NCBI RefSeq assembly: GCF_000316685.1
Contig: NC_019680.1
Location: forward strand, 3,295,407-3,359,406
From: Synechococcus sp. PCC 6312
GTDB lineage: Bacteria > Cyanobacteriota > Cyanobacteriia > Thermosynechococcales > Thermosynechococcaceae
Length of the DNA: 64,000 nt
Direction of reading: 5' to 3'
Positions 39,911-42,089 of this stretch are shown piece by piece. Under the pieces are notes generated by a model that was given only the letters and a program-made list of their open reading frames with translations, was not told where the DNA came from and ran no database searches. Position numbers and translations under genes: made by a program. The stretch's first letter is position 1. Every line of letters begins with the position of its first letter.

Positions 39911-40267
39911 TTAGGTTTTTTTCTTATTGCGTCTGGCCTGGGTTCTACGGGTAATGTTGAGACGCTTGAGGGCACGACTCACATCCTGTTGGTTAAGATT
40001 ATCGCCCCACAACTTTGCCAGTTGCTCTTGAGTCTTATCACTATTTTTGAGAACAAAGTCCTTAAACTTACCAATATCTTTGATTTTGGGTTCTCGGCGT
40101 TGATGATGATAGGAACGCGGTGCAAAAGAACCCGTTTCCAGATATTGGTTAATCCATAGATCAAGAGTATTTCGGCTAATATTAAGAGTCTTACAGAGTT
40201 GAGCCTTGACTGCTCCATGAGCAACTGCTTCTATTGCTTTTTTTCGTAAATCAGCACTGTAAGCCAT
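39911..40267 (-). pseudogene. IS630-type transposase, N-terminal (helix-turn-helix) part only
   Basis: The frame from ATG 40267 gives about 118 residues of an IS630 OrfA-like HTH pair (YSADLRKKAIEAV, LCKTLNISRNTLDLWINQYL, then DVSRALKRLNI). It ends in a Lys-rich tail. In complete elements an OrfB with the DDE catalytic domain follows, usually by frameshift. Here nothing DDE-like follows down to the tRNA-Ser gene, so the element is 3'-truncated. The N-terminal part might still bind DNA. It is next to a tRNA, a common insertion hotspot. Confidence 0.8.
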
Positions 40268-40350
40268 CTCTACTCTGCTCATCTTGTTCTGTATTTTAGT
40301 AAATCATATTATGGTTCATTTATAAGTATGTAATGTCATCGTTCTAGGAC

Positions 40351-40495: not shown

Positions 40496-41785
40496 TCAAA
40501 ATGGAGCAAAGACAACCAGGCCCTGGGGAATTGTTTTCATGGTCAATGGTGTTGTCCCCAGAATTTCACCATCAACGACAACTTTTTGCGGCGGATCGGT
40601 TTTAATTTCTAAGGTTTTACCCCGCAAGCCAATGATGTCATCTCGGTTAGGGGCAACTTTGCGAATGGCACTGCCAAACAATTCCAAGAGAGAGTTAAAT
40701 GCCTGGAGGCGATCGGCTGGAGCCACAATCGTAATGTCGAGCAGCCCATCATCCATAATGACATCTCCTGTACCATAGGCCAGCACTGACGTTACCGGAG
40801 CTGCATTCGCCACCGTAATTGCTGCTGCCGTAAATTCTGTCTTTTGTCCATCTACCACTAGCTCGGCTGTAAACGGGAACTGAGATTGAAATTGCTGCAC
40901 TCCCGCCCAGATATAAGCCAAACTGCCAAAGCGATCCTTCACTTCCCGATTTGCCCGCTCCACCGTTTCCGCCTCAAAGCCAATTCCTGTCAGTAAAATC
41001 ATGGTTTGTTTACAGGCAGAATCATCCACCCCCCTCACTTCACAGGCCGCAATATCAACGTGTCTGGTATGGCCCGCGATGATCACCTCACAGGCCGCAG
41101 GAATGGTTCCTGGTAAACCCAAAGCCGATCCAAAGGCATTAGCTGTACCGGTGGGAATCACCCCCAAAGGAATATCCGTCCCAACCAGCGCATGGGCAAC
41201 GGCGGAAATAGTTCCATCCCCCCCTGCGGCTAGAATTGTATCCATTTCTGACCCTAGCGCTTGCTTCACAAGACTTTCAGTACTAGTAGTAGGAGTTGTG
41301 GTTAAAACTGTGAGATGAAAGTAGGGTTTCAGCAGGCTCCGGATCTGAGAGAGAGTTTGGCGGGCATCCCCTTGGCCAGCCACCGGATTAAAAATCAAAC
41401 AAGCATGGGGGTAACGGGCCGCCTTGGTTAGGATGGCCCAGGCGGTGGCGGAATTGAGGGCAAGGGGGACATCATAGCGGGCACAATAGCGAATCACTAA
41501 GTCCATTTCCCCGGACTGTCCAGGCCAATAGTCACCCCACCAGAAAACAGCCGTTATTTCCTTGGCGAGAATCTTAGCAGTAATGAGGACTTCTGCCCCC
41601 TGTCCCATCTCTGGGATAAACTCAATTTCAGGGCGGGCGTGGAGGATATCCGGCAGCAAAACCTCTAAATCTTGGGGAATGAGGAGGCGAAATCGTTTTA
41701 AGAAAGCGGCATGGGCCTGAAAAAATTGGGCCAGTTCATGACGGCCACTGAGATCACAACCAAAAGCAAGGGTTGGCTGTGGCAT
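40496..41785 (-). CDS. Methylglyoxal-synthase-like domain fused to diacylglycerol-kinase-type lipid kinase
   Basis: The 429-aa product has two parts. Residues 1-125 form a methylglyoxal-synthase-like fold. Residues 127-429 are a YegS/DagK-type lipid kinase with NPVAGQG at 133-139, GGDGT at 188-192 (nucleotide loop), then IPTGTANAFGSAL and VVVDGEIL. The MGS part lacks the catalytic Asp of the GGDQQ motif (it reads EMGQGAE) and the catalytic His of the VPHDPD motif (WPGQSGEMD), so it is probably a non-catalytic ligand-sensing module. The kinase may phosphorylate diacylglycerol or another lipid. It starts one base after the stop of the preceding small gene, so both form one unit. Confidence 0.88.
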   Translation of the reverse strand: MPQPTLAFGCDLSGRHELAQFFQAHAAFLKRFRLLIPQDLEVLLPDILHARPEIEFIPEMGQGAEVLITAKILAKEITAVFWWGDYWPGQSGEMDLVIRYCARYDVPLALNSATAWAILTKAARYPHACLIFNPVAGQGDARQTLSQIRSLLKPYFHLTVLTTTPTTSTESLVKQALGSEMDTILAAGGDGTISAVAHALVGTDIPLGVIPTGTANAFGSALGLPGTIPAACEVIIAGHTRHVDIAACEVRGVDDSACKQTMILLTGIGFEAETVERANREVKDRFGSLAYIWAGVQQFQSQFPFTAELVVDGQKTEFTAAAITVANAAPVTSVLAYGTGDVIMDDGLLDITIVAPADRLQAFNSLLELFGSAIRKVAPNRDDIIGLRGKTLEIKTDPPQKVVVDGEILGTTPLTMKTIPQGLVVFAPF

Positions 41786-41786
41786 A

Positions 41787-42089
41787 TCACCAGCGGGGTG
41801 GGTTTAATTCATCAGGGTAAAGATCGTCATCTTCATCAGCAAAATCCTCTTCTTCCTCTTCCAGAACAGGCTGCATCAGAAAGGCCCGCTCGGCTTCTTG
41901 ATAGGTGAGCCATTTACCGGGTTCCCACAAAAAGGTCGGGGGATTTAAAAATCGTCCAAAGTACCAGGGGGGGGAAGTTGGTTGCGTAATCTCAGCCTGA
42001 ACTCGGATCGGGGCAATGGGTCCATAGGGGTCGTCTCGTTCAATTTCAAGCCAGACTTTTTGGCCAATTAGGTCTTGGGGAGAGAACAT
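41787..42089 (-). CDS. Conserved cyanobacterial hypothetical protein (100 aa)
   Basis: I do not recognise a family. The product starts FSPQDLIGQKVWLEIERDD, a small beta-rich domain, has an aromatic segment WYFGRFLNPPTFLWEPGKW, and ends in a highly acidic tail (EEEEEDFADEDDDLY). It is soluble, with no membrane segment. The stop is one base before the start of the lipid-kinase fusion gene, so they are co-transcribed and may act together. The acidic tail suggests binding to a basic partner. No function can be given. Confidence 0.7.
   Translation of the reverse strand: MFSPQDLIGQKVWLEIERDDPYGPIAPIRVQAEITQPTSPPWYFGRFLNPPTFLWEPGKWLTYQEAERAFLMQPVLEEEEEDFADEDDDLYPDELNPPRW

Follow-up and report, generated by a model that had tools for sequence, protein, structure and literature searches.

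An altered methylglyoxal synthase-like domain fused to a putative lipid kinase in Synechococcus sp. PCC 6312 and other cyanobacteria

Described counterparts and layout of the locus

Proteins joining a methylglyoxal synthase (MGS) part to a kinase part are already known from cyanobacteria, the closest described counterpart of the gene considered here being sll0036 of Synechocystis. According to PMC11897720, its product combines an MGS motif with an NADK motif, an arrangement present only in certain cyanobacteria, and its kinase activity was judged unlikely; the knock-out mutant contained less methylglyoxal and grew faster on glucose. PMC7407080, cited for sll0036 by PMC11897720, reports low methylglyoxal in an mgs deletion strain on glucose; when neither glucose nor methylglyoxal was added, both strains had none. 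Together, the two papers support a working synthase in an intact fusion. Hence, the view of the initial annotation that such fusions have no described role is superseded, since the intact Sll0036 has already been knocked out. Searches of the open-licence literature found no lipid-kinase reading, no decayed series and no account of selection for MGS–kinase fusions.

Other known systems share parts of this architecture. Methylglyoxal synthase MgsA (PDB 1b93, 1wo8, 6f2c) has its fold in common with the N-terminal domain (N-domain) of the protein analysed here (Z 18.3–19.2), in which, unlike in MgsA, the catalytic base, H98, H19 and the phosphate-binding residues are altered and a kinase is attached. 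The MGS-fold domain of carbamoyl-phosphate synthetase (1bxr, 2yvq) is likewise an MGS fold on another enzyme (Z 10.9–11.7), but it is C-terminal in its enzyme and structurally far more remote from the N-domain than true MGS. The YegS/BmrU/DgkB lipid kinases (PF00781 plus PF19279; PDB 2bon, 3t5p, 2qv7) share family, fold and motifs with the kinase half; their PDB chains of ~300–340 residues match only from about residue 123 and thus have no MGS-fold domain.

The gene lies in the window, i.e., the whole stretch of 64,000 nucleotides of Synechococcus sp. PCC 6312 DNA that was analysed (NC_019680.1, positions 3,295,407 to 3,359,406), and its product has the same two-domain order as Sll0036 (PMC11897720). 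The features are as follows (positions in the window):

40496–41785, minus strand: ORF of the MGS-fold and lipid kinase fusion, 429 aa
41411–41785, minus strand: N-terminal MGS-fold domain, residues 1–125, most catalytic and phosphate-binding residues changed (TIGR00160, leave-one-out profile, AF2 model, PDB matches)
40496–41410, minus strand: YegS/DgkB-type lipid kinase domain, residues 126–429 plus stop codon (DAGK_cat, YegS_C, NF002033, structure)
41210–41224, minus strand: GGDGT motif of the kinase, residues 188–192, invariant in the 24-row alignment
41663–41677, minus strand: former phosphate loop, TGTTG changed to PQDLE, residues 37–41 (alignment; loop role from PMC7843640)
41591–41611, minus strand: former catalytic loop, SGPxGGD changed to EMGQGAE, residues 59–65, with S65 and D71 both replaced by E (alignment)
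41501–41533, minus strand: former DPLxAQPHEPD segment, now DYWPGQSGEMD, residues 85–95, with H98 replaced by G92 and D91 and D101 kept (alignment)
41787–42089, minus strand: conserved acidic protein of 100 aa, 1 base upstream of the fusion and outside the system (encoded in 28 of 29 family genomes, apart from the kinase gene)

Positions 40496–42089, the range given in the initial annotation, thus comprise the fusion gene and the acidic-protein gene together. In the ORF translation, the last in-frame Met ahead of the kinase half is residue 94; since no in-frame Met lies between it and the kinase, an ATG start behind the N-domain is not possible, and the N-domain is very likely translated together with the kinase half.

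The acidic-protein gene does lie one base upstream of the fusion, as first noted, but its proposed role as a dedicated partner of the kinase is refuted. Of the 29 genomes in the family, 28 encode the protein; among them is every one of the 11 genus g2 genomes, in which no kinase match was obtained at E <= 1e-10. In the 28 acidic-protein loci scanned (L336–L363, the window's own included), a kinase motif adjoins only in the window; none was found in the 27 others within ~1.5 kb on each side, some flanks being cut by contig ends. A protein so widespread without the kinase cannot count as its dedicated partner. Searches of Pfam and NCBIfam assigned it to no family at E <= 1.

The N-domain and the kinase half

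An MGS-like module fused to a DagK-type kinase with intact GGDGT, as the initial annotation had it, was confirmed by profile matches to both halves. Residues 16–142 match the methylglyoxal synthase model TIGR00160 weakly (4.6e-6, 26.7 bits, below the cut-off of 146.9). On a profile of sister fusions from which the window copy was excluded, the N-domain scores 69.3 bits vs. 3.6 for the best of 200 shuffles and only 8.8 for the MGS-like locus of the same genome (a frame of 1099 aa). The AF2 model of residues 1–125, for which an alignment of 20 sister domains was supplied, has a pLDDT of 90.3. With this model, the first 26 Foldseek matches were all methylglyoxal synthases (best E 1.8e-8), with query TM-scores of 0.78–0.84 for the listed MGS entries; comparison with MGS structures gave Z values up to 19.2 over 120 aligned residues at 2.0 Å, the predicted models being monomers.

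The active site is numbered below as in E. coli MGS, and the window residues were assigned by sequence alignment. According to PMC7843640, D71 is the base and K23, T45–G49 and S65 are phosphate ligands of MGS, while H98 is not critical to the mechanism. In the window protein, the catalytic positions read D11 for H19, E65 for D71 and G92 for H98, with L12 for D20; among the phosphate-site residues, K23 became R15, T45–G49 (TGTTG) became P37–E41 (PQDLE) and S65 became E59. Further loop changes turned G66 into M60 and P67 into G61. The claim that the catalytic Asp and His were lost stands for D71 (now Glu), H19 and H98; two other conserved Asp, D91 (as D85) and D101 (as D95), persist. Thus, D101 is the only one of H19, D71, H98 and D101 retained. 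Judged from the alignment, synthase activity is likely lost, and weak anion binding through the Arg replacing K23 and the kept D91 and D101 is possible.

No second methylglyoxal synthase was found in the genome, TIGR00160 giving a single match. PF02142 matched twice, within a 1099-aa and a 521-aa frame; judged by their lengths, these presumably encode carbamoyl-phosphate synthetase and PurH.

In the kinase half, residues 127–247 match DAGK_cat (PF00781; 3.5e-32, 111.1 bits, cut-off 23.6), residues 268–426 match YegS_C (PF19279; 5.7e-21, 75.4 bits, cut-off 27) and residues 118–428 match the NCBIfam lipid-kinase subfamily NF002033 (403.3 bits, cut-off 293). GGDGT is the nucleotide-binding motif of such kinases. 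The predicted structure is nearest to 3t5p (Z 28.8), followed by sphingosine kinase 1 (28.1) and DgkB 2qv7 (27.3), vs. 17.3 at best for NAD kinases. No NAD kinase equivalog cut-off was reached (best NF002306, 18.3 bits vs. 316), although the general NAD kinase model PF01513 was passed (33.4 bits, cut-off 25.5). Compared with its YegS-type relatives, the window kinase has 9 extra residues near position 250 and T at position 212, where the alignment shows a near-invariant R. These profile and structure matches suggest that the protein probably phosphorylates membrane lipids, presumably diacylglycerol or a related lipid. The fusion gene is the single PF00781 match in its genome; a PF01219 (DAGK_prokar) gene is also present, so the fusion may not be required for diacylglycerol kinase activity.

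The same kinase reading bears on Sll0036. Translated by hand, its primers encode the protein ends MAAHIALISH... and ...NIFAPVENS, and the fusion L003 from our collection reads MAAQIALIAH... and ...NIFAPVENS (two N-terminal differences); on the strength of these ends, we regard L003 as closely related to Sll0036. L003 is catalytically complete, unlike the window copy: it keeps the four catalytic residues and reaches 218 bits on TIGR00160. Its kinase half has GGDGT and scores 89.9 bits on DAGK_cat, 57.8 on YegS_C and 25.1 on NAD_kinase (cut-off 25.5), i.e., as a lipid kinase. Therefore, the sll0036 knock-out, which PMC11897720 reads as a loss of methylglyoxal synthesis, may have removed two enzymes, and the mutant may lack two activities.

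Intact and decayed fusions among cyanobacteria

A TIGR00160 search of 388 genomes of the class gave a match at E <= 0.01 in 178, and in 76 the score exceeded the curated cut-off. For the 30 best matches, the frame is 420–500 aa long and runs on into the same kinase. A second search with a 24-row fusion alignment covered the 37 weakest-matching genomes and 210 without a TIGR00160 match. Among the former, 36 matched at 1e-20 (32 at full length, 4 over the kinase only); among the latter, 25+25+10 matched at 1e-80, G091 with a full-length fusion and the rest over the kinase part.

From the listed matches, 151 fusion ORFs were gathered, the window protein included, which form a collection and not a census: the fusions of G028 and G137 and the TIGR00160 places of G154, G197, G214, G225 and G286 are absent. 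Excluded were truncated or broken frames (<250 aa), rows failing the kinase motif (e.g., L247), duplicates, cNMP–MGS proteins, FHA and other long frames without a kinase, members of another DagK family (L049–L053, L055), the fragments L045, L138 and L141, and L113, in which the additional segment is not MGS. The window protein belongs to the family, its MGS-fold domain immediately preceding an NF002033-type kinase.

Copies were labelled intact or decayed by H19, D71, H98 and D101, D20 and D91 being outside the label. All four residues are retained in 57 of the 151 fusions, three in 18 and at most two in 76. Counted residue by residue, H19 persists in 126 fusions, D71 in 127, H98 in 67 and D101 in 82. 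Since the base D71 is present in many decayed copies, the label “decayed” alone does not mean inactive, and many of these copies elsewhere may, by their residues, retain some synthase activity. The window protein, in which D71 is gone too, is among the more altered copies. The catalytically complete MGS half is presumed to be the ancestral form.

A FastTree phylogeny of the kinase domain with 215 rows (the 151 fusions and 64 kinases without the MGS domain) requires 18 changes between intact and not intact, 8 of them forced by starred (well-supported) branches. A FastTree phylogeny of the 151 fusions requires 20 such changes (9 forced), or 21 (14 forced) when copies with two or fewer residues kept are set against the rest. 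By themselves, these counts are undirected; of loss and regain, loss is far likelier.

On the trees, the kinase nearest to that of the window is the one encoded by genome G069, from the same family (pair support 99, starred, in three trees). It has no MGS-fold domain, and no remnant of one was found in the DNA fetched upstream of it; hence, the N-domain is dispensable there. Where this pair belongs with respect to the large kinase-only clade depends on the tree: FastTree grouped it with 63 kinase-only rows (98, starred), whereas a mixture model placed it among the fusions, together with L184, L195 and L211, when outgroups were included (82, not starred) and on the kinase-only side when they were left out (87, not starred). 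The view that the window protein is a basal relic of the kinase-only clade was dropped.

Two genomes, G189 (L013, L223) and G059 (L196, L074), each carry an intact and a decayed fusion and thus offer a natural within-cell comparison. In G005, a 674-aa fusion (L071:1747-3768, plus strand) has ~240 further residues after the kinase.

Possible roles of the altered domain

The reading that we favor, and hold to be somewhat better than even, is that of a soluble YegS/DgkB-type lipid kinase whose MGS-derived N-domain is a retained non-catalytic module with a structural or regulatory function. The N-domain would have descended from methylglyoxal synthase, the fusion with a complete synthase half being still carried by many cyanobacteria; the catalytic residues and the phosphate site were lost in the window protein, as in many separate lineages, with the predicted fold kept. 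The same loss repeated many times with the domain nevertheless retained makes a supporting job probable. MGS enzymes are hexamers. The likeliest job would be a structural one or intramolecular control of the kinase, by holding an assembly together or by docking on or restraining the kinase, with small-molecule sensing through the old triose-phosphate pocket less likely. For the window protein, we infer both the scaffold role and the absence of synthase activity.

A bolder version, for which we have distinctly less confidence, is that a bifunctional synthase–lipid kinase was turned repeatedly (in at least 8, perhaps ~20 lineages) into a lipid kinase under the control of the dead synthase domain attached to it; the ancestor would have linked triose-phosphate overflow to phosphatidate supply, with only the control kept. 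Since intact, partly decayed and fully decayed copies as well as unfused kinases coexist in one family, the role of a dead domain can be tested by domain swaps. Decayed fusions could also be annotated as methylglyoxal synthase though they may not make methylglyoxal.

MGS-fold domains of carbamoyl-phosphate synthetase are allosteric domains. By analogy, the N-domain could be an effector-binding module through which a metabolite (triose phosphate, phosphate or another) tunes the kinase, although we regard this as unlikely. These synthetase domains were the next-best structural matches after true MGS (Z 11.7; E 5.9e-5), the titles of the matched entries name allosteric ligands, and the window protein keeps an Arg for K23 as well as D85 and D95; TGTTG, S65 and P67, on the other hand, are lost. 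The conservation of the former pocket is informative here. In the 57 intact fusions, the pocket columns are conserved at 0.96 vs. 0.72 for the rest; in the 76 decayed domains, the values are 0.48 and 0.49 (permutation p 0.78), and no shared new motif appeared in the listed pocket columns. Four mainly decayed sets taken singly, of which f24 and f2 hold one or two partly decayed rows, showed no significant excess of pocket conservation (p 0.23–0.96). Taken one by one, decayed clades show similar conservation in the pocket and elsewhere in the domain (0.82 vs. 0.83 in f13 g87; 0.91 vs. 0.86 in f24 g34), so a changed ligand is possible there. The columns kept most in decayed copies (L010 numbering) are A9, the GG turn G60–G61 before D71, V77, C100, P106, A108, N110 and A114. 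A pocket that is no longer specially conserved argues against a sensor of triose phosphate or phosphate at the old site. Thus, the initial suggestion of a regulatory module on a lipid kinase can be kept in part: the catalytic residues are lost, decayed modules are retained by selection elsewhere and a regulatory role is plausible, but the sensing of a glycolytic metabolite through the MGS site is not borne out, its phosphate residues being lost save for the K-to-R change.

Still less probable, in our estimate, is that the N-domain is an unselected relic heading for deletion, with only the kinase being important in this strain. The missing domain and missing upstream remnant at G069 favor it, and so does divergence: N-domain identity is 27.2% between the window and intact copies (49 pairs) vs. 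64.8% among intact copies (1282 pairs) at a kinase identity of 50–62%. The plain identity of the window N-domain to decayed copies (25.7%) does not exceed its identity to intact copies.

The relic reading is opposed by the confident predicted fold, obtained with the assistance of sister sequences, and by the outcome of a drift test, in which four intact domains were evolved neutrally except against stops, without insertions, to 31% identity in 200 runs. On a profile of the other decayed domains, the window domain scored 72.6 bits and the drifted domains 9.0 ± 7.6 (maximum 28.6 of 200); on an all-sister profile, the values were 69.3 vs. 14.6 ± 8.8 (maximum 33.5), the profile rows being mutually related in both cases. 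On the intact-domain profile, the window scored 38.3 bits, within the drift range (18 of the 200 simulations were as high). These scores fit a window domain held to the fold rules of the decayed copies, not to the MGS rules.

Purifying selection on decayed domains elsewhere also speaks against a relic. Over pairs with dS<2.5, which are not independent and number only 1–3 in several clades, the median dN/dS of the N-domain was 0.10–0.40 in all eight clades studied (seven decayed and one partly decayed; the set f25 holds one or two partly decayed rows), with single pairs up to 0.83. The median dN ratio of N-domain to kinase was 1.77–4.13 in these eight clades vs. 0.50–1.38 in all 11 intact ones, with no overlap of the medians; at dS<1.5, one intact clade, represented by a single pair, gave 2.70, a value that falls among those of the decayed clades, and there is overlap at the level of individual pairs. 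Overall, decayed N-domains have lost part of their constraint and are still under purifying selection. For f13 g87, similar named loci come from Phormidium and Leptolyngbya (L263, L291, L292), and Nostoc-named loci match the kinase half only. No close relative of the window gene was confirmed in the genome contigs, and the selection was shown in other clades.

That the N-domain still makes methylglyoxal or runs a changed lyase reaction is very improbable: the carboxylate kept by D71 to E, the remaining D91 and D101 and the non-critical H98 would allow it, but neither H19 nor the phosphate loop nor S65 survives, and Saadat and Harrison are said to have found in 1998 that mutation of D71 abolishes most of the activity of E. 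coli MGS.

Other domain combinations were met in the searches. In G120, L044:808-2460 (plus strand) joins the same lipid kinase type to a PRC-barrel (PF05239) instead of MGS, and L045 and L113 resemble it by eye. The frame L072:2108-4999 (minus strand; 964 aa) carries an FHA domain and a TIGR00160 match of 71 bits near its end; it is possibly an FHA–MGS protein, with MGS not among its Pfam matches. In the window itself, an ORF downstream of the fusion gene (39911–40282, minus strand) resembles, on visual inspection, the helix-turn-helix half of an IS630-type transposase, and a mobile element may therefore have inserted next to the fusion gene. In the small-genome family f2, a cyclic-nucleotide-binding domain precedes MGS (PF00027, PF02142; L067:1785-2735, minus strand, and L068:590-1582, plus strand), an arrangement that would suggest second-messenger control of methylglyoxal synthesis.
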